From Sphingopyxis sp. YF1 (GTDB lineage: Bacteria > Pseudomonadota > Alphaproteobacteria > Sphingomonadales > Sphingomonadaceae): a stretch of DNA of 64,000 bases. The DNA lies in the NCBI RefSeq assembly GCF_022701295.1, contig NZ_CP033204.1, forward strand, positions 3,810,501-3,874,500. The letters run 5' to 3'. Positions 35,995 through 57,454 of the stretch are shown here, piece after piece. The position numbers and the translations under genes were made by a program. The number at the start of each line of letters is the position of its first letter. Position 1 is the stretch's first letter. The notes below the pieces were generated by a model, which searched no databases, had not been told where the DNA came from, and worked only from the letters and a program-made list of their open reading frames with translations.

Positions 35995-37188
35995 CTATCG
36001 TGCGGTCGCCAGACGCGTTACGACTTCCGAACCGCGAACGAGCGTCAGATCGACTGGACATCGCTCCGCAATGGCCAAAATCTTGTCGCGCGCTTCATCG
36101 GACAAGTTTCCTTCAAGTTCGATCGTTCGGGTAAACACATCTTCCGGACTCTGCCCGCTGCGCTTGTCGTGCGTCACGATTGTCCTCGCCTTTGCGAGCG
36201 CAAAGCCCTTTCGATCGGCGTAAAGGCGCATCGTCATGGTCGTACAGGCGGCGAGTCCCGCGGATACCAGTTCATAGGGTGCTAGCCCCGTATCGAGCCC
36301 GCCTTCGGATATCGGCTCATCGGCATAGAAGCTGTGCGAACCGCTGCGCATCGCCAGCTGGAACTTTCCCCCGAGGGTCTCCTCGGCGAGAACGCCCCCT
36401 CCGTCCGGCGCCTCCAGGTCGGCTTTCAATACCGGCAAATATCGAGGCGCCCATGCGGCAATTATCGCGGCGGCGAACTCAGCGTCGCCGGGGCCGGTGA
36501 GAAGATGGTCGGCGTCGCCGAGCGAGACAAAGCTCTTGGGGTGCTTCGCGGCGCCGAACAGCGCCGAGGCGTTGTCGATCCCGACCAGCTCGTCGCGGGG
36601 CGCATGGAGAAGCAGGAGCGGTCGGTGCAGCGTCGCGACGCGCGGCAGCAAATCCTGTTGGCGCGCATCGGCCACGAACGCGCGGTCGAGAGTAAAATGC
36701 CGACCGGCGAGCAGGACGTCCGCGCGCCCTTGGCTTTCGATGCGCGCCAGACTCGCCGGATCAACCAGGTGCAGGACGTGACGGACTTCGGCGGGCGCCG
36801 CGATCGTGGCGACCGCCTTTATTGTCGGCATCGCTCCGGCAGCGGCAAGCGCTGCCGCCCCTCCGAAACTGTGGCCGATGAGGAGCGCGGGCGCCATTCC
36901 TTCCGCTTCCATGGCCCGACCGGCTGCGATCAGGTCGTCGGCATTGTCCGCGAAGCGCGTCTCGCCGAACGCACCCTCGCTCGAACCGAGGCCGGCGAAG
37001 TCGAACCGCAGGACGCCGATGCCCTGCCGTGCGAGAGCGCGTGCAATTCGTACCGCTGCAAGGCTGTCCTTGCCGCAAGTAAAGCAATGGGCGAAGATCG
37101 CCCATCCGCGCGGCGTTGCCGCAGGGCGGTCGACGAGTCCGGTCAGGCGATTGCCCCGCGCGCCGTCGAATTCAAAGGATTGCGCCAT
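35995..37188 (-). CDS. Fusion of alpha/beta-hydrolase and OsmC-like peroxidase domains
   Basis: 397 residues in two parts. Residues 1-255 are an alpha/beta hydrolase with nucleophile elbow LIGHSFGGAAALAAAG, oxyanion region FAHCFTCGKDS, DELVGID as acid loop and GDADHLLT as the His loop. Residues about 265-397 are OsmC/Ohr-like with TGLAPYELVSAGLAACTTMT carrying the first redox Cys and AIAERCPVDLTL the second. OsmC proteins reduce organic hydroperoxides; such fusions are known and may couple deacylation to peroxide removal. ATG 37188 has AGGAG upstream. A palindromic motif lies 76 bp upstream, divergent to ybaK. Confidence 0.9.
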   Translation of the reverse strand: MAQSFEFDGARGNRLTGLVDRPAATPRGWAIFAHCFTCGKDSLAAVRIARALARQGIGVLRFDFAGLGSSEGAFGETRFADNADDLIAAGRAMEAEGMAPALLIGHSFGGAAALAAAGAMPTIKAVATIAAPAEVRHVLHLVDPASLARIESQGRADVLLAGRHFTLDRAFVADARQQDLLPRVATLHRPLLLLHAPRDELVGIDNASALFGAAKHPKSFVSLGDADHLLTGPGDAEFAAAIIAAWAPRYLPVLKADLEAPDGGGVLAEETLGGKFQLAMRSGSHSFYADEPISEGGLDTGLAPYELVSAGLAACTTMTMRLYADRKGFALAKARTIVTHDKRSGQSPEDVFTRTIELEGNLSDEARDKILAIAERCPVDLTLVRGSEVVTRLATAR

Positions 37189-37263
37189 GGTCCCGCTCCT
37201 TCTCACCGCGCCCGCGCGCGGCCGATGCGCGATCATTTTCAACACAAGCGACCCCGGCGCCAT

Positions 37264-37279
37264 TCATACCTAGGTACGA
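37264..37279. promoter_or_regulatory. Palindromic motif copy a (candidate response-regulator operator)
   Basis: TCATACCTAGGTACGA, one mismatch from a perfect palindrome, lies between the OsmC-fusion gene (minus) and ybaK (plus). It continues with ATTTGCACG, a tail shared in part with copies at 49667 and 42054. Confidence 0.55.
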
Positions 37280-37357
37280 ATTTGCACGCGCCGCCGCTTC
37301 GACTAGTCGCGCCCACCGGTTAGGGCGAACGCGTCCAAGAACTTATGGAGAATCGGC

Positions 37358-37831
37358 ATGGCACGGACCACGCCAGCAACCCGAATGCTCGACAAGGCCG
37401 GAATCGCCTTCGAGACCTTCACCTATGACTATGATCCCGGCGCGGAGCGCATCGGCGTCCAGGCGGCCTTAGCGCTTGGCGAAGAGCCCCGCCGGGTGCT
37501 CAAGACATTGATGGCGAAAGTCGACGGCAAGCCCGTTTGCGTGATCGTGCCTTCCGATCGCGAAGTTTCGATGAAGAAGCTTGCAGCCGCGTTCGGCGGC
37601 AAGTCGGCGGCGATGATGGCGCCCGCGGATGCCGAACGGCTGACCGGCTATCACGTCGGCGGCATCAGCCCCTTCGGGCAGCGCAGGCAGGTGCGGACGG
37701 CGGTCGAGGAGAGCGCGCTCGCCGAGCCCTATATCTATGTGAACGGCGGTCAGCGCGGACTTCAGCTGCGACTCGACCCCAAGGCGGCGATGATGGCGCT
37801 TGCGGCGATCGCCGCACCGATTGCCACGTGA
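37358..37831 (+). CDS. ybaK: Cys-tRNA(Pro)/Cys-tRNA(Cys) deacylase
   Basis: 157 residues, the normal YbaK/EbsC size. It hydrolyses mischarged Cys-tRNA(Pro). Motifs include the N-terminal MARTTPATRMLDKAGIAFET, VLKTLMAKVDGKPVCVIVPS with the conserved Lys, and the substrate-loop YHVGGISPFGQRR (GxxxP). PYIYVNGGQRGLQLRLDP closes the fold. ATG 37358 is the first in frame and has GGAG upstream. It is divergent from the hydrolase-OsmC gene with the palindrome between them. Confidence 0.93.
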   Translation: MARTTPATRMLDKAGIAFETFTYDYDPGAERIGVQAALALGEEPRRVLKTLMAKVDGKPVCVIVPSDREVSMKKLAAAFGGKSAAMMAPADAERLTGYHVGGISPFGQRRQVRTAVEESALAEPYIYVNGGQRGLQLRLDPKAAMMALAAIAAPIAT

Positions 37832-37836
37832 AAAGA

Positions 37837-37865
37837 GGGCGGCGACCGCTATCCGGTCGCCGCCC
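37837..37865 (-). terminator. Rho-independent terminator of the MBL-fold gene
   Basis: A 12-bp perfect stem GGGCGGCGACCG/CGGTCGCCGCCC with a 5-nt loop is followed on the minus strand by TCTTTT. It lies 17 bp past the metallo-hydrolase stop and between convergent genes, and may also stop ybaK transcripts weakly. Confidence 0.8.
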
Positions 37866-37881
37866 AGGGGGGAGAGAGGGT

Positions 37882-38829
37882 TCAGACGCCGCGGTAGACG
37901 AGCTGGGTGAACAGCGCCGGGTTGATCACACCGCCGCCCCACTTCGCATCGAATTCGGCCGACGGCTTGGCGGCGATGGTTTCATCGAGCGACTTGCCCT
38001 GCGCCTTCAGCGCCGCGACACGGTCGCGGATCGTCACCAGCATGTCGCGGAAGGCGACAAGATCGGCGCGCGAGCCGACCGGGCCGTGACCGGGCACGAC
38101 GATGGTGTCCGCCCCGGACTTCTCGATATTCCAGTTGGCCGCACGGATCATGCCGTCGATGCTACCGCCGGCGACATAGTCGATGAAGGGATAAACGCCG
38201 TTCCACCAGGTGTCGCCCGTGGCCAGCACATTGGCCTTGCGGAAATATACCGAAAGGTCGCCGTCGGTGTGCGAGGGCATATAGTGGCGGATTTCGACGG
38301 TCTCGCCGTTGAAGGTCATCACCTTCTCTTCGTCGACGAGCATCGCGGGGCGGTAGCCCGCAGGCACGGGATCGAAGGTATGTCCCCATTCGACGACGCG
38401 GATCGTCTTGTCGAGATGGGCAGCGGTGTTGCGCTGCGCGATAATCTTCGCACCGTCTTCGTGGGCCCAGCCGTTCCCATCGGTGTGGTCCCAGTGCCAG
38501 TGCGTGTTGATGACGAAGTTCAGTCCGCCAGGGCGCAGGCCGGTCAGCACCTCCTCGATCTTCGCGCGGGACACCGCGATGCCGTCGTCGACAAGCAGCA
38601 GACCCTGCGGCCCTGCGAGCGCGACGATCGAACCGCCGGCTCCATCGAGCACGGTGACATTGCCGCGCAGCGCGGTCGGGGTGACGGGCGAGGCCGCGGT
38701 CGCGGTGTTGATGATGTCATAGGGCGTTTTGGCTGCTTCGGCAGCGTGCGCCGACGCGCCGGCAGCAAGGGCGAAAGCAAGAAGGGCGCTCGAGGCCAGA
38801 CCCGGGCGGCGAATAAGAATATTGCTCAT
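37882..38829 (-). CDS. Periplasmic MBL-fold metallo-hydrolase
   Basis: 315 residues. A signal peptide (LLAFALAAGASAHAAEA) is followed by a metallo-beta-lactamase fold: LLVDDGIAVSRAKIEEVL, the dinuclear metal motif INTHWHWDHTDGNG (HxHxDH), HYMPSHTDGDLSVYF with another His/Asp, LATGDTWWNGVYPFIDY and IVVPGHGPVG. All metal ligands appear present. The family contains lactamases, glyoxalases and quinone-processing enzymes; the style resembles 'cyclase-like/quinoprotein relay' MBL proteins rather than true beta-lactamases. Substrate unknown. ATG 38829 gives the signal peptide. It is divergent from the PAS kinase gene across 138 bp. Confidence 0.88.
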   Translation of the reverse strand: MSNILIRRPGLASSALLAFALAAGASAHAAEAAKTPYDIINTATAASPVTPTALRGNVTVLDGAGGSIVALAGPQGLLLVDDGIAVSRAKIEEVLTGLRPGGLNFVINTHWHWDHTDGNGWAHEDGAKIIAQRNTAAHLDKTIRVVEWGHTFDPVPAGYRPAMLVDEEKVMTFNGETVEIRHYMPSHTDGDLSVYFRKANVLATGDTWWNGVYPFIDYVAGGSIDGMIRAANWNIEKSGADTIVVPGHGPVGSRADLVAFRDMLVTIRDRVAALKAQGKSLDETIAAKPSAEFDAKWGGGVINPALFTQLVYRGV

Positions 38830-38967
38830 GATGTGACTCCGATACTGTTGCGAGGAGCCGATCATCGGTCAGTTGGCGGGGCGAGTAACTAATATGAAGG
38901 TTTAGACCTGCCGATTGCGCTTGCCCGCGGCTCGGATCCAGTGCGATGGCGGGGAGGAGCGGTAAGC

Positions 38968-40869
38968 ATGCTGCGCGTCCGGAGGGGTCCGATGGGGACG
39001 AAGTTTACAGGATCGACCGTGTTCGCGCTGCTCGCATTGGCGCTCGGCATCGGCATCTTCGCGGTCGATATGTTCAGCCCGCTCGGCGGGGCCATCGCCG
39101 TGCTCTACACATTCTGCATCATCCTTCTGACCCGCGCGGGCAGGACCGGGATCGTCGCGCTGGGAGGCGTGATCGCCGCCCTCGCGGCGATGATCGCCTT
39201 TCTCGCCGGCCATTGGGGCGAGGCGGTGGGCGCCGCGCATGTCCGGCTGGGCGTGAGCCTTGCCGCGATCGGCGCCACCACCATCCTTTCCTATGGCATC
39301 CTCAGCACAAGAAAGCTGTGCAGCGAGCAGGCGAATATTCTCGCGCTGACGCACGATAGTGTCATCGTTCTCGATCGTCACGACCGGGTGGCAGGCTGGA
39401 ACGAGGGGGCCGCCCATATTTATGGCTGGTCCGCGGAGGAAGCGATCGGCCGTGCCTATGACGATCTCATCGCGCTCGATGCACCGCGCGAGGCGGCAAA
39501 GCAGCGGCTCGAGCAAAGCGGTGCGCTCACCGAAGAAATGTCGGGCACGGGCAAGGATGGCGCACCCTTTACCGTGTCGACGCGCATGGTCCGCCGGCGC
39601 AACCTCGCCGGCGCGCCGGACGGCCTGATCGAGGCGAGCATCGACTTGTCGGAGCAGCGCCGGGCCGATGCCGCGCGGCGGGCTTCCGAAAATCGCTACC
39701 GGGCCATTTTCAATGCTGCCGGCTTCGCCGCTTGGGAAACCGATTGGACCGGTGTGCGCCAGCTTCTCGAGACGATCGCTCCGGATGGCGAAGACCTGCA
39801 GGCCCATCTGCTGGCTAATCCCGACCTGCTCCGAAAGGTGGCGGCAACGCCGCATATCCACGAGGCGAACCAGGCGGCTGCGGCACTGTTCGGCGTCGCC
39901 GATCGTAGCGAGTTGATCGGGAAGAATGTGATCGCGCGCTACCCCGAAACGAACGGTCTTGCGCTTGCAACGCTATTCGCTCGGCTGGCGGGAGGCGAAG
40001 ACCTGGTCGAGGTCGAGACACGGATCAACAACCTCAAGGGCAAGCCGATCGACGTCGTTCTGCGCGTGAGACTCGTTCCCGAGGGCGAACCCTGGTCGCG
40101 CGTCCTCATCATGGCGATCGACATGACCGAGCGAAACGAGGACCGGGCCCGGCTCGAACGCAATATGGTCGAACTCGCCCATGCGTCGCGCGTGTCGATC
40201 CTCGGCCAGCTCGCCGCGTCGATCGCGCATGAGGTCAATCAGCCGCTTTCGGCCATCATGACCTATGCGAAATCGGCGCGCCGCTGGCTCAAGCGCGAGA
40301 CGCCCGACCTCGACGAAGTGGCCAATTGCATCGAGCGGATCGACGCGAATAGCGAGCGCGCGGGGGCCATCATTACGCGGGTCCGGACCCTCGCCCGCAA
40401 GGGTAGTGCCCAGATCGAAGCGATCTCGCTCGCCGAACTCGTCGGAGAAGCGCTGGCGCTGGTCGATCGGGAAGCGTGCGCGGCCCGGATCGCGATCCGC
40501 ACCGACATCGAGCCGCCGGACATCCGCATCGCGGCCGACCGCGTCCAGATCCAGCAGATTCTCGTGAATCTGATCATGAACGCGATCCATGCCAGCGCGG
40601 GTACCGGCCCGGCGGGCGACATATTGGTCACGGCCTCCAAAGATGCCGAAGGCATGGCGCGTATCGAGGTCGCCGATCGCGGCAGCGGTATTGTCGGGAT
40701 CGAGCCTCACGCCCTCTTCGATGCCTTTTATACGACGAAACCCGACGGGATGGGAATGGGGCTGTCGATTTCGCGGTCGATCGTCGAGGCCCATGGCGGG
40801 CGCATTTCCGCGGCCAACAATCCCGAGGGCGGAGCCACGATCAGCTTCACCATCCCTGTGGCGCTTTGA
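38968..40869 (+). CDS. Membrane-bound PAS-domain sensor histidine kinase
   Basis: 633 residues. Three or four N-terminal transmembrane helices (FALLALALGIGIFAVDMF, AVLYTFCIILLTRAG, IAALAAMIAFLAG, AIGATTILSYGIL) precede a PAS domain (DSVIVLDRHDRVAGWNEGAA), a second PAS-like region and the HisKA box SIAHEVNQPLSAIMTYAKSA with phospho-accepting H421. The HATPase has NLIMNAIHA (N box), VADRGSGIVG (G1) and MGMGLSIS (G2). FixL/DctB-like organisation; the signal is unknown and no haem-PAS histidine is obvious. ATG 38968 follows GGAGGAG at 8 nt. Two response regulator genes follow, so it probably phosphorylates one or both. Confidence 0.9.
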   Translation: MLRVRRGPMGTKFTGSTVFALLALALGIGIFAVDMFSPLGGAIAVLYTFCIILLTRAGRTGIVALGGVIAALAAMIAFLAGHWGEAVGAAHVRLGVSLAAIGATTILSYGILSTRKLCSEQANILALTHDSVIVLDRHDRVAGWNEGAAHIYGWSAEEAIGRAYDDLIALDAPREAAKQRLEQSGALTEEMSGTGKDGAPFTVSTRMVRRRNLAGAPDGLIEASIDLSEQRRADAARRASENRYRAIFNAAGFAAWETDWTGVRQLLETIAPDGEDLQAHLLANPDLLRKVAATPHIHEANQAAAALFGVADRSELIGKNVIARYPETNGLALATLFARLAGGEDLVEVETRINNLKGKPIDVVLRVRLVPEGEPWSRVLIMAIDMTERNEDRARLERNMVELAHASRVSILGQLAASIAHEVNQPLSAIMTYAKSARRWLKRETPDLDEVANCIERIDANSERAGAIITRVRTLARKGSAQIEAISLAELVGEALALVDREACAARIAIRTDIEPPDIRIAADRVQIQQILVNLIMNAIHASAGTGPAGDILVTASKDAEGMARIEVADRGSGIVGIEPHALFDAFYTTKPDGMGMGLSISRSIVEAHGGRISAANNPEGGATISFTIPVAL

Positions 40870-40909
40870 GGGACGAAGGGCGCCGCAGACATGCTATACA
40901 GGCCTCACA

Positions 40910-40925
40910 TCATCCTTAGGTATGA
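40910..40925. promoter_or_regulatory. Palindromic motif copy b
   Basis: TCATCCTTAGGTATGA, three differences from the consensus TCATACCTAGGTATGA (positions 5-7), lies 55 bp before the start of the receiver-only regulator. Confidence 0.5.
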
Positions 40926-40979
40926 TGGCGGCGGGGCGGCGCAGCTGCTGTTGCGGACCGTCCTGTCAGGAGAAGTGAC

Positions 40980-41342
40980 GTGCCGAGTAAATTGGTGGGC
41001 GTCGTCGACGACGATGAAGATGTCCGCACCAGCATCGAGAGCCTGCTGCGATCGGCGGGCTATCGTCCGTTCTGCTTTCGCAGCGCGGAAAGCTTTCTCG
41101 CCTCGTCGCATCGCGATATCGTCGATTGCCTGCTCACAGATTTCAATATGCCGGGACTGAACGGCCTCGAGCTGCATCGGAAGATCGCGCGCGACCGACC
41201 TTCGCTGCCGGTCATTCTCATGACGGCGTTTCCGACCGACATCGTTCGCCAAGGCGCCGAGGAACAGGGTATCGCCGGCTTCTTCGTCAAGCCGATCGAC
41301 GGCGACCTTCTCATCGACAAGCTGGAGGATGTGTTATGCTGA
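40980..41342 (+). CDS. Receiver-only (single-domain) response regulator
   Basis: 120 residues, just a REC domain: acidic pocket VGVVDDDEDVR, phospho-acceptor D54 in CLLTDFNMPGLNG, the Thr in VILMTAFPTD and Lys in FFVKPIDGD. It lacks an output domain, so it may feed or drain phosphoryl groups in a relay. It starts with GTG at 40980, after AGGAGAAGTGAC. Its stop overlaps the next regulator's start by 7 bp, implying coupled synthesis. Confidence 0.9.
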   Translation: MPSKLVGVVDDDEDVRTSIESLLRSAGYRPFCFRSAESFLASSHRDIVDCLLTDFNMPGLNGLELHRKIARDRPSLPVILMTAFPTDIVRQGAEEQGIAGFFVKPIDGDLLIDKLEDVLC

Positions 41343-42025
41343 TCAGGCAAAACCGCAGCGGCCACGACGCGGCTTCCGAAAACGCGGTGCCGCTGCCGCC
41401 GCTCGTGTGCGTGCTCGACGACGATCCGGACATCCGGGGCAGCATCGAAAGTCTGCTGCGCTCGGAGGGATTCTCGGTCCAGACCTACGCCTCGACATCC
41501 GATTTCGTCATGTGCGAGAGCGTCGATCGTGCCGCCTGTCTTCTGCTCGACATCAATCTCGGCGATGCCAATGGTCTCGACTTCCAGGAGGAACTCGCCG
41601 GCAATGACATCGCGGTGCCGGTCATCCTGATGAGCGGCTATGGCGACATTCCGATGACGGTGCGCGGGATGCGTGCGGGAGCGCTCGATTTCCTTTCCAA
41701 GCCGCTTTCGGACGATGTCCTTCTCGCTGCGGTGTCGGACGCGATCCGCAAGGACGAAGTGCGGCGCCAGGCGAGCGCCGCACTCGACGGCACGCGGCAG
41801 CGTTACAATGCCCTCACCAACCGCGAGCGGGAAATCATGGGACTGGTGACCGCGGGCCTGATGAACAAGCAGATCGCAGCGCGGCTGGGGCTGAGCGAAA
41901 TCACGGTCAAGATCCACCGCGGCAACATGACCCGCAAGATGCAGGCCGACTCGCTCGCCGATCTCGTCCGGATGGCGGAGGAACTGGGCGCGCGCGAGGA
42001 AACGGCGAGCCGCTTTAACCGCTGA
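41336..42025 (+). CDS. FixJ-family response regulator with LuxR-type DNA-binding domain
   Basis: 229 residues. REC domain: CVLDDDPDIRGS, D72 in CLLLDINLGDANG, the Ser/Thr position in ILMSGYGDIPMTV and the Lys in DFLSKPLSDD. A linker helix leads to the LuxR HTH LTNREREIMGLVTAGLMNKQ and [20 protein letters not shown]. It overlaps the receiver-only gene by 7 bp. The HTH closely resembles the regulator at 54147, so the two may bind the same operator. ATG 41336 has GGAGGATG upstream; longer in-frame starts overlap the previous gene entirely. Confidence 0.93.
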   Translation: MLIRQNRSGHDAASENAVPLPPLVCVLDDDPDIRGSIESLLRSEGFSVQTYASTSDFVMCESVDRAACLLLDINLGDANGLDFQEELAGNDIAVPVILMSGYGDIPMTVRGMRAGALDFLSKPLSDDVLLAAVSDAIRKDEVRRQASAALDGTRQRYNALTNREREIMGLVTAGLMNKQIAARLGLSEITVKIHRGNMTRKMQADSLADLVRMAEELGAREETASRFNR

Positions 42026-42053
42026 TCCCGGGCACGGCGCGCCCGCCGTCCAG

Positions 42054-42069
42054 TCATACCAAGATGTGA
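42054..42069. promoter_or_regulatory. Palindromic motif copy c
   Basis: TCATACCAAGATGTGA, three differences from the consensus, followed by ATCATCACGG, which shares spaced identities with the flank of copy a. It lies 72 bp upstream of the 49-aa gene. Confidence 0.45.
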
Positions 42070-42107
42070 ATCATCACGGCCGGGTACGATCCTATGTTTG
42101 TCTCGTA

Positions 42108-42127
42108 GCGGGCACAGCCGTGCCCGC
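42108..42127 (+). promoter_or_regulatory. Leader hairpin before the 49-aa gene
   Basis: GCGGGCAC and GTGCCCGC pair perfectly around AGCC, ending four bases before the GGAGAC Shine-Dalgarno. It could shield the ribosome site, stop readthrough from the regulator gene, or both. Confidence 0.4.
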
Positions 42128-42141
42128 CGTGGAGACAGGTC

Positions 42142-42291
42142 ATGTCGAAATCAGAAACAGAAAGCCGGCGTCCCGCGCCGACGGCGCCTCCGGCCCCCGA
42201 GCCGCGCGCCGCAATCGAAGAACGGATCGACCATGCACTCGAAGACAGTTTTCCGGCGAGCGACCCGCCCGCGGCCAACGTCTTCGACTGA
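42142..42291 (+). CDS. 49-residue acidic small protein with SFPASDPP motif
   Basis: ATG at 42142 is preceded by GGAGACAGGTC; the frame runs 49 codons to TGA and encodes a Pro/Ala-rich N-half, then EERIDHALEDSFPASDPPA and a short acidic end. The ALEDSFPASDPP signature is, in my memory, shared by many small proteobacterial proteins of unknown function often near stress genes. The coding frame fits local codon use better than the overlapping frames. It sits between the FixJ-like regulator and the first hydrolase gene, with a palindrome and hairpin upstream. Function unknown. Confidence 0.75.
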   Translation: MSKSETESRRPAPTAPPAPEPRAAIEERIDHALEDSFPASDPPAANVFD

Positions 42292-42403
42292 AGCGGGCGG
42301 AGCCGAATTAAAACCTAAGAATGATGGGAAAGCGGTCCCGCCGACCTGAAAATGCTCCGGTCGAAACCGCGAAATCTTTCGCGCAGCAGCGAGGAGTAGG
42401 ATC

Positions 42404-43225
42404 ATGAGCTTCATCAAGACCCCCGACGGCGTCTCAATCTATTACAAGGATCTGGGAGCCGGCCAGCCCGTCCTTTTCTGTCATGGCTGGCCGCTCACGG
42501 CCGATGCCTGGGACAGCCAGATGCAATTCCTCGGCGAACGGGGTTACCGGGTCATCGCTCACGATCGCCGCAGCCATGGCCGCTCCGACCAGGTCTGGGA
42601 CGGCAATGACATGGATCATTATGCCGATGATCTCGCGGCGCTGATCGAGGCGCTCGACCTTCGGGACATCGTCCTCGTCGGCCATTCGACGGGCGGCGGC
42701 GAAGTGGCCCATTACATCGGGCGGCACGGGACCGCCCGCGTGGCGAAGGCCGTTCTGATCAGCGCCGTTCCGCCGGTCATGCTGCAGAGCGAAACCAACC
42801 CGCACGGGACGCCGCTTGCGGCGTTCGACGACATCCGCGCCGCGCTGCTCGACAACCGCAGCCAGTTCTACAAGGATCTGACGACGCCCTTCTTCGGTTA
42901 CAACCGGCCGGGGGCGGCGATTTCGCAAGGGACGCGCGATCATTTCTGGCTGCAGGGCATGATGGGCGGCCTCAAGGGCCAATATGACTGCGTCCATGAA
43001 TTTTCCGAGGTCGACTACAGCGAAGACCTGAAACGGATGACCATCCCGACGCTGGTTCTGCACGGATCGGACGATCAGATCGTCCCGATCGACGCCTCGG
43101 CGCGGCTCGCGGTCGGCATCCTGCCGCAGGGCCAGCTCAAGATTTACGAAGGCGGCCCGCACGGGATGCCGATTACGATGAAGGAACAGGTCAACGCCGA
43201 CCTGCTCGCTTTCATCCAGAATTGA
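42404..43225 (+). CDS. Alpha/beta hydrolase (non-haem chloroperoxidase/arylesterase type), copy 1
   Basis: 273 residues. The family signature [19 protein letters not shown] at the N-terminus, [12 protein letters not shown], the nucleophile S95 in [15 protein letters not shown], acid D223/224 in [10 protein letters not shown] and H253 in GGPHGMPIT form the triad. Enzymes of this group hydrolyse esters or lactones and can act as perhydrolases. Cytosolic, no signal. It begins a plus-strand series of redox-type genes (42.4-47.5 kb) with gaps under 220 bp; GAGGAG precedes the ATG. A secreted paralogue lies at 54974. Confidence 0.92.
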
Positions 43226-43312
43226 TCCGAATCCGACGGTCAGGCGCCGACCCGCAAGAGGCGGGCAGCGCCGGACCCGGCTTTTCTCCCCTCCAGAAGC
43301 AGGAACAAGACC

Positions 43313-43750: not shown

Positions 43751-43759
43751 GACATCATC

Positions 43760-44851: not shown

Positions 44852-44868
44852 AAGCAAGGAGACGAGAA

Positions 44869-45834: not shown

Positions 45835-45890
45835 CACGGCGGCGGCGGTCCGCCTCGCCCCGGGCATCCTCCCAGGACCCCGCCCCGTGC

Positions 45891-46485: not shown

Positions 46486-46498
46486 AAAGGAACTGACC

Positions 46499-47546: not shown

Positions 47547-47577
47547 CATATCCTGCGCCCAATTCGGGAAGGTGCCG

Positions 47578-49217: not shown

Positions 49218-49286
49218 GACAACCCCCTCTGGGTGGAGGCGGCGGACCGGCTCGGCCCGCCGCCCCCTGGTAGCGCCGAACGCGCG

Positions 49287-49586: not shown

Positions 49587-49666
49587 GATCGATCCTTCCT
49601 GGTCTGGGCTGCGGGGGCAGCCGTTCGTGCCAGACGAACTTCCCTCACATCGCCCGGGACCGGTAG

Positions 49667-49682
49667 TCATGCCTTGGTATGA
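49667..49682. promoter_or_regulatory. Palindromic motif copy d
   Basis: TCATGCCTTGGTATGA, two differences from the consensus TCATACCTAGGTATGA, continuing GTTCGCACG like copy a. It is upstream of the tautomerase gene on the minus strand and 28 bp beyond the end of the NarL-type regulator. Confidence 0.55.
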
Positions 49683-49710
49683 GTTCGCACGCTCCGATAG
49701 CTGCGCGTTC

Positions 49711-50337
49711 CTAAAGCGAAATGATGCCTCGCCGCAGCGCGGTGGTGACTGCCTGCGTCCGGTCGGTGACGTCGAGCTTGGAGAAGATGCTGCGCAGATG
49801 CGCCTTCACCGTCTCCTGCGAAACCGAGAGTTCCCACGCGACCGTCTTGTTCGCCTTGCCGGCGGCGACCAGTTCGAGAATGGCTATTTCGCGCGGGCTG
49901 AGAGGTTCTTCGGCGGCATGAATCGCAATCTCTTGAGCGATCTCGACCGGAAGGTACCGGCGTCCGGCATGCACGGCGCGGATCGTCTCGAGCAACTCCT
50001 TGCGGACCGAGCTCTTGAGCAGGAAACCGCACGCACCCGCCTTGAGTGCGCGCACGGCCTGAACATCGCCTTCATAGGTCGTCAATACGACGATGCGGGC
50101 ATTCTCGCTTTCCGCCCGAATGGCGGCGATGGCATCGAGCCCTGGCATCACCGGCATCTGCAGATCCATCAAGGTGACATCGGGCCGAAGATTCCGGTGT
50201 GCCTCGACTGCCTCGGCTCCGTTGGCCGCTTCGCCGACGATCTCCATATCTGCTTCCTGCGCGACGATAGCGGCGATGCCTTCGCGGAGCATGACATGGT
50301 CGTCCACGGTAAGGATTCTAATCGCTTTGCCCGTCAT
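49711..50337 (-). CDS. NarL/LuxR-type response regulator
   Basis: 208 residues. REC: ILTVDDHVMLREGIAAIVAQ, D58 in VTLMDLQMPVMPG, the Thr in VVLTTYEGDVQAV and the Lys in FLLKSSVRK. The C-terminal GerE HTH is LSPREIAILELVAAGKANKT with SVSQETVKAHLRSIFSKLDV. Its ATG at 50337 overlaps the sensor kinase stop by 4 bp, so it pairs with that kinase. It is the likely output of the beta-propeller sensor. NarL-type regulators often bind inverted repeats with TAC/GTA cores, compatible with the palindrome described here, but which regulator binds it is unknown. Confidence 0.94.
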   Translation of the reverse strand: MTGKAIRILTVDDHVMLREGIAAIVAQEADMEIVGEAANGAEAVEAHRNLRPDVTLMDLQMPVMPGLDAIAAIRAESENARIVVLTTYEGDVQAVRALKAGACGFLLKSSVRKELLETIRAVHAGRRYLPVEIAQEIAIHAAEEPLSPREIAILELVAAGKANKTVAWELSVSQETVKAHLRSIFSKLDVTDRTQAVTTALRRGIISL

Positions 50338-53300
50338 GGCGCTGACCTTCCCTTCCACACTCTCCGCAGCCGGCCGAAGAGCGACAGGTCGTAATTCTCG
50401 TATGCGGCGCGGGCAGGCAGCGTCAGGGCGATCTCGGTTCCTGCCCCTTCGCGGCTCGTGACCGTCAGTTGCCCGCCCACCCGCTCCGCGCGCTCGCGCA
50501 TGCCCACGAGCCCGAAATGGCCTCCGCGTCGCGCGTCGTCGAAGATCGACGGGCGCATACCGATACCATTGTCGCGGACCGCGAGCAAAAGCTCTTGGGC
50601 GCCCCAGTGAAGCAGAATCTCGATCCGCGAGGCCTCGGCATGATGGAGCGCATTGCGAAGTGCCTCCTCCGCGATGCGCTCGACCTCTTCGCGGATCAGA
50701 GGATGAAGGGCGCGCGCGGCGCCCTCGCGCGTCAACTCGACACGCGGCCCGTCCGGCCCGACAATTTCGGATGCGCGCGCCACAAGCGCGCGGGCGAGAT
50801 CGGTCTCCGACGGCTCGAGTCGCAGGTCCAGGATCCGGGAGCGACCGTCAACAAGCACGGCATCGGCGCGCTCGAGAGCCTCGTCGATCGCGGTCCGAGA
50901 GGCTGCGCCTTTCGGCAAGCTGTTTGCGATGGCCTGAAACCGCAGGACGAGACCCTGAAAGCCTTGCAGGAGCGTATCATGTATCTCGCGGGCGATGCGC
51001 TCGCGCTCCTGAATGCGGATGTCGAACCGCGCCTGAAGGCTCCGCGTCAGGAGGCGCATCCGGAAGCGGTAGAGAGCGACGACCGCTGCCAGGCCGGCGA
51101 GGAGGAGGAGGAATTTGAAAGCGGTCGTCTGGACGAAGGTCGGGGCGATGCTGAAGGTCAGCGTCGCACCCTCGCGGTTCCAGACCCCGTCTTCGTTGGA
51201 GGCGATCACCCTGAAGCGATAATCGCCCGGCCCGAGATTCGTGTAAAAGGCCTGCCGCCGCATTCCCGGATCGACCCATTGGTCATCCTGGCCCTCCAGC
51301 ATGTAGCGTATCTGAACCCGCTCGGGCATGCCGAGCGCCAGCGCTGCGAAGCCGATCGACACTTGCGCCGTGCCGGCGGGAAGCGTCAGGTTCACAGGGT
51401 CCAGGAAACGGGCCTTGCGCGTCGTCAGCGATCCGATCGCGACGCCGGGCGGCCGGGTGTTGGAATGGAGGCGCGCTGGGTCGATCCAGACCGAGCCGGC
51501 ATCGGTCGAGGCCCACAGGCGTCCGTCCCCGCCGGCGACGAGGCTGCGGTTGCGTGCCCGTGCACGCACGTCCGGCAAGCCGTCGAGAAAGCCGTAGCTG
51601 CGGGCGCGCAGAATGACGCCCGGATCGCGAAAGGCGCGTTCGATCGCGGCCGTGTCGAGACGGCTCACACCCATCTCGCCAAAGATCCAGGTTTCCCGCG
51701 CACCCCTCTGCAATACGCCCATTGCGCGTTCGAGCGCGGGAATCTGGCGTATGTCCGCAACCGAAAGACCCCGATCGTCGAGCCGCCCGAGGCCGCGATC
51801 ATAACCGAGCCATAACCCCCGGGGGGCCGGGCTGATGGTGCGAACCGCTCCGAGTGCAGCATGCTGGCCGACGTCGTGAACCTCGGGCGGGCCGCCAGCG
51901 AGACGCGCGACCTTGTTCTTTCCCCAGAGCACCCAAAGGTCGCCCGCGCTGTCGCGTACCATCTGGGTAGGCGAAAAGCGCGCGGCGCGATTGGCAGGCA
52001 GATTATGCCATTTGCCGGCGTCCCAGCGGTAGAGGCCGCTGCCCGCCGCGCCCATCCAGAGGCGGCCCGACCGGTCGAGCCCGCAATCGAAAACCCCGTC
52101 TTCGCGCTCGGTTGGTGGCGGGATCCGGCGGACGTCACCGTTTCTCCAGATGACGATTCCGTCTGCCGCGACGATCCAGATTGCGTTATCCGGCCCTTCG
52201 CAGACCGCTTCGGGCTCGTTGATGCCGGTGACGATCGCAACCGGGCCGCCGCGCGGGACGACGCGATAAACCGCATCGCGCTGCCCGATATAGATGGCGC
52301 CGTCGCGCCCGGCGAAGAGGATGTCGCCATAGGCGGCCGGCTTGTTGAGGCCCGGCTCGACGATGACGTTCGCATTGCGGAACCGGTCGAGACCGAGCGC
52401 CGTCCCGACCCAGATATTGCCGTCCCGGTCTTCGAAGATGTCGTGGGTCGTATCGGACGTGAGGCTGTCGCTAGCGCGATATTCCCACGCCGCCGCCGCC
52501 GCCGGGGCGCGGCCGGGGGGCGCGCGCAGCCGTTCAAGCCCGTCCCGCCGACGTGCAACCCAGAGATTGCCGTCCCGGTCGAAGAGCGTTTTGCCGCGGC
52601 GACGAAAGGCATCGCTCGGATAGATGTTCGAAGGCAATGCGTCACGCAGGCTGCCGCCCGGCCCGGTTATCGCCCGGCTTCCCCTTTTGTCGGTGAGCCA
52701 GAGCGCCCCCTGCCGATCGGTAGCGATCCGCATCCGTGCCCGCGGGCTGGCGAGAAAAAGTTCGAACCGCGTGGCGCGAGGGGGCAGCCGGTAAAGCGCG
52801 TCATTATAGGAGGCCCACAGCGCGCCATCGCCGGTGACGAGCGTGTCATAGCTGCTTTTTCTGAGGCCTGCGGTCGGGTCAACACGAGTCCAGCGTCCTT
52901 TGGCGTAGCGCAGCATCGGTTGACCGATCTGCCCGATCGCGATCCAGATCGCCCCGTCAGGCGTCTCGGCGAAATCGACGACCTGTCCGTTGGTCGGCGG
53001 CGAAGGGACGAGGGCGAGCTTGCCGCCGCGGTAGACGCGAAATCGCTCCGAAAGGAGATAGCTCACCCAAAGATCGCCGCTCCGCGTCAGAAAAAGCTGC
53101 ACCGGCGGTCCCTCGATCGCGATGTCGACCCCTCGATCCATTCGCTCGAAGCGAATCCCGTCGAACCGGTAGAGACCGGCGCCGCTCGACATCCAGAGGA
53201 AGCCGTCCGGCGTCTGGAGAATGTCGCTCACCGGTGAGGGCGCGCCTTCGGACCGGCCCCATTTCGTGTGGATATATTGGTGAATGCTCCGCTCGGGATC

Positions 53301-53432
53301 GAGCGCGGCAGCGGGGGAACCGAGCGACAGCGACGCCGCAAGCAGCGCCGCGACAGCCCTCCGAAGGCCTTCTGTCCCCACCGAATGCGACCCGAATTTA
53401 CCCGGTGGGACTTGCCTTGCGACACGCCCCAT
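50334..53432 (-). CDS. Periplasmic beta-propeller (two-component-regulator-propeller) sensor histidine kinase
   Basis: About 1032 residues. After a signal peptide (RRAVAALLAASLSLGSPAAALD) a series of Reg_prop-like repeats forms a periplasmic propeller; examples are DGFLWMSSGAGLYRFDG, DGAIWIAIGQIGQPML, DGNLWVARRRDGLERL and DGNIWVGTALGLDRF. A Y_Y_Y domain (YTNLGPGDYRFRVIASNEDG), one transmembrane helix (FKFLLLLAGLAAVVALYRF), and HisKA_3 (REIHDTLLQGFQGLVLRFQA, H818) with a HATPase (EEALRNALHHAEAS, RDNGIGM, GLVGMRERAERVG) follow. ATG 53432 is chosen for GGGAAGG upstream; GTG or ATG starts further up are possible. Such sensors detect extracellular saccharides or other molecules. It is followed by its partner NarL-type regulator. 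Confidence 0.92.
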   Translation of the reverse strand: MGRVARQVPPGKFGSHSVGTEGLRRAVAALLAASLSLGSPAAALDPERSIHQYIHTKWGRSEGAPSPVSDILQTPDGFLWMSSGAGLYRFDGIRFERMDRGVDIAIEGPPVQLFLTRSGDLWVSYLLSERFRVYRGGKLALVPSPPTNGQVVDFAETPDGAIWIAIGQIGQPMLRYAKGRWTRVDPTAGLRKSSYDTLVTGDGALWASYNDALYRLPPRATRFELFLASPRARMRIATDRQGALWLTDKRGSRAITGPGGSLRDALPSNIYPSDAFRRRGKTLFDRDGNLWVARRRDGLERLRAPPGRAPAAAAAWEYRASDSLTSDTTHDIFEDRDGNIWVGTALGLDRFRNANVIVEPGLNKPAAYGDILFAGRDGAIYIGQRDAVYRVVPRGGPVAIVTGINEPEAVCEGPDNAIWIVAADGIVIWRNGDVRRIPPPTEREDGVFDCGLDRSGRLWMGAAGSGLYRWDAGKWHNLPANRAARFSPTQMVRDSAGDLWVLWGKNKVARLAGGPPEVHDVGQHAALGAVRTISPAPRGLWLGYDRGLGRLDDRGLSVADIRQIPALERAMGVLQRGARETWIFGEMGVSRLDTAAIERAFRDPGVILRARSYGFLDGLPDVRARARNRSLVAGGDGRLWASTDAGSVWIDPARLHSNTRPPGVAIGSLTTRKARFLDPVNLTLPAGTAQVSIGFAALALGMPERVQIRYMLEGQDDQWVDPGMRRQAFYTNLGPGDYRFRVIASNEDGVWNREGATLTFSIAPTFVQTTAFKFLLLLAGLAAVVALYRFRMRLLTRSLQARFDIRIQERERIAREIHDTLLQGFQGLVLRFQAIANSLPKGAASRTAIDEALERADAVLVDGRSRILDLRLEPSETDLARALVARASEIVGPDGPRVELTREGAARALHPLIREEVERIAEEALRNALHHAEASRIEILLHWGAQELLLAVRDNGIGMRPSIFDDARRGGHFGLVGMRERAERVGGQLTVTSREGAGTEIALTLPARAAYENYDLSLFGRLRRVWKGRSAP

Positions 53433-53570
53433 CCACGCCTTCCCACTTTTGCGCCGCTCACACGGTCGCAGGTCAACCATGGGGCGCGCCGGAGGCAGCA
53501 CCCGAAAGTCTATTCATCGCATACCCCATTCGACATTATATTACGATATACGATTGCCTAAGCCTCGGGC

Positions 53571-53957
53571 ATGCGATCGATCGTTTCTTCCTATCCGGGG
53601 GGCGCGGCCGCCCTCGGTCTCGCACTCCTGCGCTGCTCGGTCGCCATACCGCTTCTTGCGGACATGCTCCGAACCGCAGCGCCCCTGTGGCAACCCGTCG
53701 GCATCGGTCTGCTCATCGCCGGCCTTCTCTGCGGCTTCCGTGCGCGTTTGCTTGCCGCGATCTGCTGCCTCGCCGCGCTGACCGATGCGGCCTCCGGCGA
53801 CGGCGCCGCCACGGCCATCCAGTTGCTCGATGCGTTCGCGCTCGCTCTCCTGGGGCCGGGAGCGTGGTCGATCGATGCTCTGCTCTTCGGCCGCAAGACG
53901 ATCGTCGTGCCCGGGCGTAGCACGGGCAACGATCCCGGCATTCCATCCGATCTTTGA
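53571..53957 (+). CDS. DoxX-like small membrane protein
   Basis: 128 residues with four hydrophobic segments (AALGLALLRCSVAIPLLADM, PVGIGLLIAGLLCGFRARLL, AICCLAALTDAASG, LDAFALALLGPGAWSIDALL). The pattern suits the DoxX/DoxD-like family, which associates with redox or thiosulfate reactions in some species. ATG 53571 lies in a 138-bp gap to the divergent sensor kinase. It ends 190 bp before the next regulator gene. Family assignment is moderate. Confidence 0.65.
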   Translation: MRSIVSSYPGGAAALGLALLRCSVAIPLLADMLRTAAPLWQPVGIGLLIAGLLCGFRARLLAAICCLAALTDAASGDGAATAIQLLDAFALALLGPGAWSIDALLFGRKTIVVPGRSTGNDPGIPSDL

Positions 53958-54146
53958 CGGTTCGACAGGACTCTCGCGCGCGGTATGCCCGGCCCGCGAC
54001 GATAACCGATAGATTTGAATATTGATCGCAGCTTAGCCCGCACCGCGACCCGCTTTGGCCGGCACAGGGCAACAGGCTTGGCACCCGCTTTGGGATACGC
54101 CTTCTAGCTTGCATCGGGATGGGCGAGAGAGCCGATAACGGAGAAG

Positions 54147-54977
54147 ATGGCCGCAGAAAGACGCGTCGAAAAGGACCGATTTCCGATGACCCCTTTGCTC
54201 TCCCCCGGCCCCCAGTCCAGGACGCCCCTCCGTCCCCCGCCCCGCGGCTATCCTGGACTGGGCGTTGGCCGTCCCGACATGGCGAACCCCGGCGGGAAGG
54301 CGGCAACGCCATCGCCGGCCGCAGCGCCGCTAGCGGCGGAAGCGGCTTCGCTTGTCGTCATCGTCGATGGCGACCCGGCGACGCGCGATGCCTTGTTATG
54401 CCGTCTCATCGCTGCGGGCCATTCGGCCGTCGCCTTTTCATCGCTCCCTCAAATGCTCGAGGCGGTGCTTCCCGACTGCGCAACCTGCTATCTTGTCGAT
54501 GCCTGGCTCCCCGGCGGGCTGGATTTTCAGAAATATCTTCGCGACCGCGGCCTCAAGCGCTCGATCGTCTATCTCTCGCGCGGCGGCGATTTCGCGACAG
54601 GCATTCGCGCGATGAAAAATGGCGCTGTCGACTTTCTCCTGAAGCCCGTCGGCGAAAATGCCCTGCGCGAGGCGGTCGACCTCGGTCTCGAACGGGATAG
54701 GGCGCGGCGCGAAGCCGATCGCTCCGCCCGGCAGACGATGGAGCGGGTCGCGAAGCTGACGCCGCGCGAATGGCAGGTGATGGGCGCAGTCGCCTTCGGC
54801 AAGCTCAACAAGCAGATCGCCTATGATCTCGGCATCAGCGAGATCACCGTCAAGATTCACCGCGGCAACCTCAAGCGCAAGCTGCGGGCTCGGTCGGTCG
54901 GCGAACTCGTGCGGCTCTGGGAGATGCTGCCGCCCAATCTCAGGAAATTCAAAACCGAAGGAGGACAAACGACATGA
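54147..54977 (+). CDS. FixJ-like response regulator with atypical N-terminal extension
   Basis: 276 residues. About 60 residues of Pro/Ala-rich chain precede the REC domain, whose acidic pocket is changed ([13 protein letters not shown]); D118 in [10 protein letters not shown] is the likely phospho-site and FLLKPVGEN holds the Lys. The LuxR-type [23 protein letters not shown] and [20 protein letters not shown] is strikingly like the one at 41336. Internal starts (54186, 54279) could remove the tail. It overlaps the next hydrolase gene by 4 bp (ATGA), a coupled regulator-hydrolase module. Confidence 0.87.
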
Positions 54978-55960
54978 CGACCCAACAAGCTTCCGCGCCG
55001 ACCCCCTTTACCGGCTCGCGACGCGACATCCTGCTCGGCGCCGTCGGCGGCACGATTGCCGCGGCGCTTCCTGTCGCCGCCAGTGCGGCGCCGGCTGCTT
55101 CATCCCATCCCTCGAGCCAGAAAGGACGCAAACCCATGGGCAAGATCACCACCAAGGACGGCACCGAAATCTTCTACAAGGACTGGGGTTCGGGCCAGCC
55201 CATCGTCTTCCACCACGGCTGGCCGCTGAGTTCGGACGACTGGGACAACCAGATGCTGTATTTCCTCGCGCTCGGCTACCGCGTCATCGCGCACGACCGC
55301 CGCGGCCACGGACGGTCGACCCAGACCGATCATGGCAATGACATGGACACCTATGCGGCCGACGTCGCCGAACTCGTCGCGGCGCTCGACCTCAGGGACG
55401 CGATCCATATCGGTCACTCGACCGGGGGCGGCGAGGTAACCCGCTATGTCGCACGGCATGGGAAAGGGCGGGTAGCGAAGGCGGTGCTTATCAGCGCCAT
55501 TCCGCCGTTGATGCTCAAGACGCCGGGCAACCCGGGCGGCACGCCGATCGAGGTGTTCGACGGCTATCGTTCCGCGCTGGCCGCGAACCGCGCGCAATTC
55601 TACCTCGATGTCGCAAGCGGCCCGTTTTACGGCTTCAACCGGCCGGGCGCCAAGATATACGAAGGTTTGATCCGCAACTGGTGGCGCCAGGGTATGATGG
55701 GCGGGACCAAGGCGCATTACGACTGCATCAAGGTGTTCTCCGAAACCGATCTTACCGAGGATCTGAAGATGATCGACGTACCGACGCTCGTCATGCACAG
55801 CGAAGACGATCAGGTCGTTCCCTTCGCGGATTCGGCACCGCTCGCGGTCAAGCTGCTGAAGGCCGGGACGCTCAAGGTCTACAAGGATCTGCCCCATGGC
55901 ATGTTCGCGAGCCATCCCGACATCATCAACCCCGATATCGTCGCCTTCCTCAAGGCCTGA
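54974..55960 (+). CDS. Exported alpha/beta hydrolase (chloroperoxidase-like), copy 2
   Basis: 328 residues. An N-terminal [20 protein letters not shown] resembles a Tat signal (SRRxxLL) followed by an Ala-rich cleavage region. The mature part from [20 protein letters not shown] is closely similar to the hydrolase at 42404; the triad is in [15 protein letters not shown] (Ser), [10 protein letters not shown] (Asp) and [10 protein letters not shown] (His). An in-frame ATG at 55136 with AAAGGACGC upstream could give a cytosolic form. It overlaps the FixJ-like gene by 4 bp. The substrate is unknown. The exported form distinguishes it from copy 1. Confidence 0.92.
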
Positions 55961-56019
55961 CCGGCCGAACGTGCCGAACAGGCGGGCCGGCGGCGAAGGC
56001 CCACAAAGGAATGAGTATC

Positions 56020-56934
56020 ATGCGTTTCACGACTCCCTTCGGTTTCGCCAGCACCGCGATGCAAGTCGCCGAAGGGGTCGATCTCGCCGGTCGCAAGGCG
56101 ATCGTTACCGGCGGCGGAGCCGGGATCGGGATCGAGACCGCGCGTGCGCTCGCTGCCGCGGGAGCCGAGGTGACGCTCGCTGTCCGCCGGCCGGGCGCGG
56201 CCGAAAGCGTCGCGGATGAGCTCAGGCAGGCGACCGGCAACAAGGCCATCGACGTGCGCCTGCTCGATCTTGCCGATCTCGCTTCGGTCCGCCGCTTTGC
56301 CGACGACTGGAACGGTCCGCTGCATATTCTGGTGAACAATGCCGGGATCATGGCGACACCCGAGCTCCAGAAAACCGCGCAAGGCCATGAGTTGCAGTTC
56401 GGCACCAATTATCTCGGGCATTTCGCGCTGACCTATTGGCTCCGGCCTGCGCTTGCCGCGGCGAACGGCGCACGCGTGGTATCGCTGAGCTCGAGCGGAC
56501 ACTGGTTCAGCCCGGTTCTGTTCGACGACCTTCGCTTCGACTTCATTCCTTACACCCCGATCGGAGCCTATGGGCAGTCGAAGTCGGCCTGCGCCCTACT
56601 TTCGGTCGCTATCACGAACCGGTGGAAGGACGATGGCATCGTGTCGAACGCACTCAATCCGGGCGCGATCGCGACAGGTCTCCAGCAGCACACGGGCGGG
56701 CTGCGGACACCGGTGGAACTCAGAAAGACGGTCGAGCAAGGCGCGTCGACGTCGGTTCTGCTTGCCGCATCCCCCCTGCTCGAGGGGGTCAGCGGTCTTT
56801 ATTTCGAGGATTGCAACGAGGCACAGCGTATCACGGCGAGACCGACTGATTTCAGCGGCGGCGTCGCGGGCTATGCGCTCGACCCCGGCAACGCCGAGCG
56901 CCTCTGGACCACATCGCTTGCCTTCCTCGGGTGA
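56020..56934 (+). CDS. Short-chain dehydrogenase/reductase
   Basis: 304 residues. The Rossmann start AIVTGGGAGIGIETARALAA, HILVNNAGIMATPEL, the catalytic Ser and YxxxK in RVVSLSSSGHWFSP and AYGQSKSACALL, and the PG motif NALNPGAIATGL are all in place, retinol dehydrogenase/WW-oxidoreductase-like. It reduces or oxidises carbonyls with NAD(P). ATG 56020 is 9 nt past AAAGGA; ATG 56011 is too close to it. It is 59 bp after the hydrolase gene and ends with overlap into the DUF983 gene. Confidence 0.92.
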   Translation: MRFTTPFGFASTAMQVAEGVDLAGRKAIVTGGGAGIGIETARALAAAGAEVTLAVRRPGAAESVADELRQATGNKAIDVRLLDLADLASVRRFADDWNGPLHILVNNAGIMATPELQKTAQGHELQFGTNYLGHFALTYWLRPALAAANGARVVSLSSSGHWFSPVLFDDLRFDFIPYTPIGAYGQSKSACALLSVAITNRWKDDGIVSNALNPGAIATGLQQHTGGLRTPVELRKTVEQGASTSVLLAASPLLEGVSGLYFEDCNEAQRITARPTDFSGGVAGYALDPGNAERLWTTSLAFLG

Positions 56935-57436
56935 CGATACCGAAAGCGACGACCATCGCGGGTGGCGCTGGATTTATAGCGTCGGGCTGCGCGGGCTCTG
57001 CCCGCGCTGCGGCAGCGCCAGCATGTTTCGGGGCTGGCTGAAAGTCGAGGACGAATGTCCGGCCTGCGGCCTCGATTATGATTTCGCCACCCCCGACGAC
57101 GGTCCCGCCTTTTTCGCGCTCTGCTTCATCGCCTTTCCGCTGCTTTTCCTCGTCGTCGGGTTCGAAGTCATGCTGCGCCCGCCCTGGTGGGTGCACCTGC
57201 TTGTCTCACTGCCCCTGATGACAATTCCCTGCGTTCTTGCTCTCAGGCCGACCAAGGGGTGGCTGGTCGCCTCGCAATATGTGAACAGAGCGCAGGAAGC
57301 GGGCACCGAGGCATCCTGGTCCGGTCTCAACGCCCGCGCCAAAGCGAAACTCCGCCAGGACGGGCCCGCAGGCGAAGCCGGTCAGGGCGCTTCTGCCGCG
57401 GATAGCAAGTCCCCTCCGCCCCGGCGTGGAGACTGA
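56918..57436 (+). CDS. DUF983 family membrane protein
   Basis: About 172 residues. A zinc-ribbon-like start GLCPRCGSASMFRGWLKVED with CPACGLDY is followed by two transmembrane helices (FFALCFIAFPLLFLVVGFEV and VHLLVSLPLMTIPCVLAL), the DUF983 organisation. No ATG exists in this frame near the beginning; I used TTG 56918, which overlaps the SDR by 17 bp, so the true start is uncertain. DUF983 proteins occur beside cytochrome-oxidase or lipid genes, with no proven role. It is the final gene of the plus-strand series; convergent with the next gene across 18 bp. Confidence 0.82.
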   Translation: MPSSGDDTESDDHRGWRWIYSVGLRGLCPRCGSASMFRGWLKVEDECPACGLDYDFATPDDGPAFFALCFIAFPLLFLVVGFEVMLRPPWWVHLLVSLPLMTIPCVLALRPTKGWLVASQYVNRAQEAGTEASWSGLNARAKAKLRQDGPAGEAGQGASAADSKSPPPRRGD

Positions 57437-57454
57437 ACAGACTCTGGTTTTCCT

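Follow-up and report, generated by a model that had tools for sequence, protein, structure and literature searches.

A palindromic box in Sphingopyxis sp. YF1 as the likely operator of a local, autoregulated FixJ-type regulon

The stretch of Sphingopyxis sp. YF1 DNA analysed here (the window: 64,000 nt, positions 3,810,501-3,874,500 of a genome of 4,367,405 bp) contains a block of two-component regulators and enzyme genes whose intergenic gaps share a 16-bp inverted repeat. A first-pass annotation had proposed this palindrome as the shared operator of a candidate regulon, and the present analysis supports that reading: the strict palindrome is confined to the block, and its sites are conserved in sister genomes and in distant modules. 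From the comparisons set out below, we consider it likely that the FixJ-type response regulator encoded at 41336-42025 uses the palindrome as its operator and that the sites define a local, autoregulated regulon. The genes concerned, with starts taken from a codon-usage gene caller, are these:

35995-37188, minus strand: alpha/beta hydrolase-OsmC fusion, proposed target
37882-38829, minus strand: metallo-beta-lactamase-fold hydrolase (metallo-hydrolase), proposed target
38992-40869, plus strand: PAS histidine kinase with HisKA, HATPase_c and PAS domains, proposed sensor
40980-41342, plus strand: receiver-only response regulator with its phosphorylation residues kept; its 3' end overlaps the regulator gene
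41336-42025, plus strand: FixJ-type response regulator, REC plus LuxR-type helix-turn-helix (HTH) with recognition helix TVKIHRGN, proposed binder of the boxes
42142-42291, plus strand: 49-aa open reading frame (ORF) without a Pfam family, proposed target
42404-43225, plus strand: alpha/beta hydrolase, proposed target, followed on the same strand by SnoaL-like, Gfo/Idh/MocA and MDR genes (43313-45834)
46051-46485, plus strand: DsrE-like protein, proposed target; an MDR quinone-reductase-like gene (46526-47494) comes next
49287-49586, minus strand: 4-oxalocrotonate-type tautomerase, proposed target
49711-50337: NarL-type regulator, with a propeller kinase
54279-54977, plus strand: second FixJ-type regulator, recognition helix TVKIHRGN, altered acidic pocket, possible co-binder

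The block also holds a HisKA_2 kinase, and alpha/beta hydrolase and SDR genes. The domain matches of the regulator at 41336-42025 (Response_reg, E 2.7e-22; GerE, E 5.4e-22) place it in the NarL/FixJ group. Four regulators of this group had originally been counted in the block; three of them do carry a DNA-binding domain, whereas the fourth, at 40980-41342, consists of a receiver only. Judged by their families alone, the proposed targets may plausibly handle peroxides, quinones and carbonyls, and we infer a stress-related role for the regulon.

Four copies of TCATACCTAGGTATGA, with one, two, three and two mismatches, start at 37264, 40910, 42054 and 49667, just where the first-pass annotation had placed them. 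They are also the only matches to this strict form (≤3 mismatches) in the whole genome, all inside 12.4 kb of the window, compared with none for the reversed control and a chance mean of 0.02 per window in shuffles of the window. With a scoring matrix built from other genomes, the intergenic sites in the window come to seven: the four copies, the weak fifth copy that had been suggested at 45942-45957, and two more at 38890 and 42309. The fifth copy has a matrix score of 17.6, and its letters are identical in two sister genomes. The matrix matches considered below, none with an assigned strand, are as follows:

37264-37279: operator box 1, TCATACCTAGGTACGA, between the osmC-fusion gene (minus) and a ybaK-like gene (plus); -10-like GAAAAT at +31, facing osmC-fusion
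38890-38905: operator box 2, TAATATGAAGGTTTAG, between the metallo-hydrolase gene (minus) and the histidine kinase gene (plus); -10-like GATGAT facing the metallo-hydrolase; matrix score 16.3
40910-40925: operator box 3, TCATCCTTAGGTATGA, 5' of the receiver-only gene; without a -10-like element at +31
42054-42069: operator box 4, TCATACCAAGATGTGA, 5' of the 49-aa ORF; -10-like TATGTT at +31
42309-42324: operator box 5, TAAAACCTAAGAATGA, 5' of the alpha/beta hydrolase gene; -10-like GAAAAT at +31; matrix score 13.8
45942-45957: operator box 6, CGAAACCAACGTATGA, 5' of the DsrE-MDR pair; -10-like TATTCT at +31; matrix score 17.6
49667-49682: operator box 7, TCATGCCTTGGTATGA, 5' of the tautomerase gene; without a -10-like element at +31
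55655-55670: matrix match, score 19.5, within the alpha/beta hydrolase gene 55136-55960

The boxes are named here as predicted operators. The match at 55655 was rejected as such for its coding position and is probably not an operator, and a further match at 53536 was set aside with a score of 13.5, which is near background. The window's eight best matrix matches all lie within 37264-55655, the one at 55655 being coding. At scores ≥13.8 the block contains eight matches, and neither the rest of the window nor a 400-kb sample of the same genome contains any (one at 13.0 occurs in the sample). The strict form is thus absent from the rest of the genome, and the check for an equal frequency in random intergenic DNA, proposed at the outset, did not refute the operator reading.

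Conservation within the genus follows the regulator. Its counterparts in Sphingopyxis sp. H073 and Sphingopyxis sp. OAS728 are 93% and 95% identical, respectively. Among 80 Sphingopyxis genomes, three encode a regulator of ≥93% identity (the next best reaches 60%), and the same three, YF1 itself (G000) and the sister genomes G225 and G240, hold the four-site cluster in the same letters; single matches with ≤3 mismatches occur in 31 of the 80, at rates similar to the reversed control. All 14 of 14 copies of the seven intergenic sites were located in G225 and G240 by exact match, and 0 of their 224 positions are changed, against 317 of 1494 positions in the intergenic flanks (Fisher 7e-22, from two comparisons that are not independent of each other). 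Conservation upstream of orthologues, proposed at the outset as a check on the operator reading, is therefore found, with all seven sites unchanged in two sister genomes and boxes near homologous modules in other orders. The GCACG flank said to be common to the copies at 37264 and 49667 fared differently: it is kept in neither sister genome at either copy and is probably due to chance.

Part of the block, 48537-53231, differs between strains. In comparison with the corresponding loci of G225 (L181) and G240 (L182), the NarL-type regulator and the propeller kinase have their closest matches at another place in G225, and the HisKA_2 kinase has no match within the stretch fetched from that genome. 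G240 also carries a 57%-identical copy of the regulator that is broken by one stop codon (G240:C1:1896806-1897462).

A search with the palindrome alone (≤2 mismatches) across the order gave matches in 10 of 196 genomes, YF1 included. Ten of the 11 palindrome loci outside YF1 (about 1.5 kb on each side) have no homologue of the window genes, and one has a 29.5% receiver match. Such matches being mostly chance, the regulator was taken as bait instead. Relatives with 56-61% identity occur on plasmids of Rhizobium, Azospirillum, Roseomonas and Novosphingobium. In the annotated plasmid loci (four of six), the regulator has a stand-alone receiver nearby, as well as a kinase or ATP-binding protein, and the stretch includes an alpha/beta hydrolase; five of the six plasmid loci contain the palindrome with ≤3 mismatches (L021 has none under 4). 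The wider set consists of the best 80 of 233 regulator relatives, 1.516 Mb in total, mainly from Alpha-, Beta- and Gammaproteobacteria plus one acidobacterial metagenome-assembled genome; one of its members, L022, is the sister genome H073.

In a count of all 12-bp palindromes with ≤1 defect, ATACCTAGGTAT occurs at 29 sites in 20 of the 80 loci against an expectation of 0.3, the floor applied where the shuffles contain no copy. Ranked by likelihood, only the codon-like GTCGTCGACGAC (114 versus 12) stands above it, and none of the 15 palindromes listed has a higher ratio. CATACCTAGGTATG is second among 14-mers; TCATACCTAGGTATGA, with 5 sites, shares a middle rank with several other 16-mers. Compared in 86 loci with 90 permutations of the half-site letters, itself included, ATACCTAGGTAT comes first at 0 mismatches (5 versus a mean of 0.12) and at 1 mismatch (37 versus 1.6).

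The symmetric matrix was built from 85 loci (L016-L101 without L022, none of them from Sphingopyxis) by iteration from ATACCTAGGTAT at ≤1 mismatch and has the consensus AATCATACCTAGGTATGATT (TCATAC-N4-GTATGA), in which A-T-A-C N4 G-T-A-T are the strong positions. At threshold 13 it returns 250 matches, compared with 14 in shuffled sequence and with 33 on average, 84 at most, for ten column-permuted matrices. In the 85 loci, 229 matches are intergenic and 18 coding by midpoint, whereas for 60 permuted matrices the mean is 17.5 intergenic and 12.5 coding, with maxima of 42 and 49, respectively; with a tolerance of 10 bp, and with the window and L022 included, the numbers are 261 intergenic versus 3 coding. 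Ten non-training loci with a regulator of ≥48% identity (196 kb) yielded 28 matches, at least one in each; some of these loci are closely related to each other or to training loci, and the sole match of L187 is about 7 kb from the regulator. In ten non-training comparison loci with regulators of 36-47% identity (196 kb), 7 matches fell in six.

Across 107 loci, most of them in the training set, the regulator's recognition helix is TVKIHRG 76 times (mean 3.3 boxes), TVKVHRG 8 times (2.9), TVKLHRS 8 times (0.9) and TVEVHRA once, with no box. Five Xanthobacteraceae loci with helix TVKVHRG (L053, L058, L059, L060 and L077) display two boxes 3' of the regulator, one of CTATACACAAGTATAG type and one of CTATACGCACGTATAG type. 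In the Sphingopyxis loci L189-L192, L194 and L196, whose regulators have helix TVKLHRS, the regulator and receiver genes are accompanied by a variant box, for instance CTAGACTTTGGTATGG, which suggests a second operator code. L193 and L195, also with TVKLHRS, are without a box.

The circuit around the regulator recurs as well. Among 87 loci, the window included, a full-length regulator was called in 85; 63 have a receiver-only gene, 55 a kinase homologue within 4.5 kb, and 46 both. Judged by sequence, 53 of the 63 loci with a receiver gene have a box ≤300 bp upstream of it; the same holds for the regulator in 23 loci and for a kinase in 24. Of the 85 loci, 71 have a box before at least one of the three genes and 80 before any gene. 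The boxed genes number 241 (window and L022 excluded), and 106 encode receivers, regulators or kinases. Leaving aside five of <60 aa, the other 130 include AraC-type HTH proteins (25), LysR (9), cupins (5), sigma-70 region 2 (5) and SDR proteins (4), while 11 and 8 match two alpha/beta hydrolase families, with possible overlap.

The boxes show a preferred distance to a -10-like element. The training loci provide 105 non-redundant promoters with a single boxed gene at 30-170 bp. In 31 of them xAnnnT lies 31 bp downstream of the centre of the box (mean for other offsets 4.0, standard deviation 3.1), and in 11 TAnnnT does (mean 0.6). A -10-like element at +31 puts the box at about -42, the position of class II activators, and the spacing would fit an activator that overlaps the -35 element. 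In the window, xAnnnT is present at +31 in five of nine gene-facing orientations: those of the OsmC-fusion, the metallo-hydrolase, the 49-aa ORF, the alpha/beta hydrolase and DsrE. Since the element occurs on one side only of the two divergent gaps, the OsmC-fusion and the metallo-hydrolase are the likelier targets there.

Several results weigh against an operator bound by the 41336-42025 regulator. Looser patterns show no genome-wide enrichment (MATACNNNNGTATK with 1 mismatch, 28 versus 38 for the control, 3 of the 28 inside the block; WMATACCWWGGTATKW with 3 mismatches, 35 versus 33, 6 of the 35 inside the block); the distinguishing feature is density in the block, not the genome-wide count of such patterns. 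At 2 mismatches ATACCTAGGTAT drops to third place among its permutations, with 102 matches (mean 19.7), while two palindromes made of these letters have 183 and 167. Because the core found in the window served as its seed, the matrix is independent of the window's sites but not of its motif; at thresholds 9 and 10 one of the ten permuted matrices exceeds it (470 versus 349 and 306 versus 305). The loci are not phylogenetically independent, and five of the 85 have no boxed gene. Eight of the ten comparison loci carry helix TVKLHRS, and the six with matches, all among these eight, hold variant boxes of one type. In the nine orientations scanned in the window, no -10-like element at +31 faces ybaK, the kinase, the receiver-only gene or the tautomerase. 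Intergenic DNA is moreover AT-richer, and one might take the copies for a dispersed repeat, for chance or for an AT bias of intergenic regions, in keeping with the loose patterns and with the permuted matrices at low thresholds. We find this barely credible: at threshold 13 the real matrix has far more matches than permuted matrices or shuffles, the sites alone are conserved while their flanks have diverged, and the spacing to the -10-like element is a preferred one.

Linkage of boxes to a regulator family leaves the identity of the binder unproven in a block with two FixJ-type regulators, and this too counts on the negative side. The regulator at 54279-54977 has a recognition helix identical to that of 41336-42025 and may for this reason share its boxes; each of the three Sphingopyxis genomes with boxes also has it within the same block. 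That it is the main binder, or that the two FixJ-type proteins act as heterodimers or in competition, nevertheless seems unlikely to us. In each of the plasmid loci L016-L021, the window's three regulators find only one FixJ/NarL-type HTH gene, closest to the 41336 type; the nearest matrix match 5' of 54279, that at 53536, is weak and about 0.7 kb off; and in the receiver one paired acidic residue is replaced by glycine (VDGD versus LDDD in 41336; the phospho-acceptor Asp is kept), so that the protein is possibly phosphorylation-independent. Ownership of the boxes by the NarL-type regulator at 49711-50337 with its propeller kinase is very improbable. Proteins of this type bind inverted repeats of such a size, and the gene adjoins the tautomerase box; yet its helix, TVKAHLR, is different, its closest match in G225 (82.7%) lies elsewhere in the block while the tautomerase box is unchanged, and the regulators of distant boxed loci are of the 41336 type. 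The original guess of a NarL/FixJ-type binder thus fits, and it can be narrowed to 41336-42025 as the likeliest candidate, with 54279 as a possible co-binder.

The sites, their conservation, their linkage to the regulator family and the -10 spacing that prevails across loci come directly from the computation, and the following model would join them. The PAS kinase (38992-40869) would phosphorylate the 41336-42025 regulator, whose phosphorylated dimer is predicted to bind the inverted repeat (core ATAC-N4-GTAT) centred near -42 and to activate the target promoters in place of a -35 element. Putative targets are its own receiver-only/regulator transcript, the OsmC-fusion hydrolase, the metallo-hydrolase, the 49-aa ORF, the alpha/beta hydrolase run, the DsrE-MDR pair and the tautomerase. 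With its own transcript and neighbouring enzyme genes as targets, the system would be a compact local regulon under its own control, present in the genome as an accessory block. Feedback of the stand-alone receiver on the kinase is probable, on the model of FixT and FixL.

Scans for sigma-70 promoters and terminators did no better than shuffles, and no receiver relative was found among the viral contigs searched. A DUF4915 protein adjoins the block (57455-58606, E 2e-119) and has an 83%-identical relative near the FixJ-type regulator of L195. Beyond it, a 1755-aa ORF (58663-63930), which matches Pertactin weakly close to the C-terminus, is possibly an autotransporter.

On a wider scale, an entire FixJ subfamily could have the box as its common operator. 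This subfamily would be defined by helix TVKIHRG and near variants, be spread over Alpha-, Beta- and Gammaproteobacteria and comprise perhaps thousands of members; in each copy a stand-alone receiver would close a feedback loop, and local enzymes and secondary regulators (AraC, LysR, sigma-70-like) would be exchanged between genomes. We see the odds for and against this generalization as balanced. A search with the 41336-42025 regulator returned at least 7817 proteins at E ≤1e-40, counted by overall score and not by helix, and among the 120 matches listed the named ones carry the family name alone (FixJ family, response regulator). Similar protein-site pairs recur in distant proteobacteria and provide a testable target for a regulator family that has been little characterised, and a predicted operator, promoter geometry and autoregulatory loop would make local regulons readable from sequence. 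A joint function is also hinted at for several block enzymes that lack an assignment.

Very probably the box is a genuine operator and the block a local regulon of a FixJ-subfamily response regulator; its operator and member genes are new, and the type of regulon is already known. In the open-access literature on the sequence, FixJ, StyR/TodT and NodW, as far as its text was available, we found no description of the operator (the ACCTAGGTAT and ATACNNNNGTAT forms, or TCATACC with GGTATGA); subscription papers could differ. The NodV-NodW system of Bradyrhizobium is a two-component pair, and boxed Bradyrhizobium loci show a kinase-regulator-receiver layout. A 2017 review calls the action of NodV-NodW at nod-box promoters unclear (PMC5793154). 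NodW-like regulators could belong to the subfamily outlined above, and a kinship of NodW to 41336-type regulators is our guess.

The system also has features of FixL-FixJ-FixT. FixL is the best NCBIfam match of the PAS kinase, below the cut-off (234.1 versus 850); the regulator scores 182.8 bits, under the cut-off of 255 for the NCBIfam equivalog of FixJ (NF006900), and the sole locus with a TVEVHRA helix (L198) is without a box. FixT is a stand-alone receiver under the regulator's control that inhibits autophosphorylation of FixL (PMC7078487). A stand-alone receiver gene is present here, is preceded by a box and would be under the regulator's control. The four-cysteine motif of Caulobacter FixT is absent, and the receiver here has three scattered cysteines.

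The solved structure closest to the 41336-42025 regulator is 1yio (E 2.9e-49), titled response regulatory protein, which we take to be StyR; FixJ comes second. The recognition helix of StyR uses Lys175, Val176 and His179 and its group may read ATAAACN4GTTTAT (PMC5874301), and StyR activates from about -40 (PMC2442086). The regulator described here shares with StyR, TodT and TmoT the combination of REC and LuxR-type HTH and a palindrome with an AC-N4-GT core. In contrast, its half-site is CATAC instead of the ATAAAC of ATAAAC-N4-GTTTAT, no aromatic-ring oxygenase is found among the block genes scanned, and the PAS kinase has one transmitter, whereas TodS has two. The box thus resembles the StyR/TodT box but differs from it. 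At the positions of the StyR contact residues, Lys is kept, Val is replaced by Ile and His by Gly, and the two pairs, KV..H with ATAAAC and KI..G with CATAC, offer material for how such a helix chooses its DNA.

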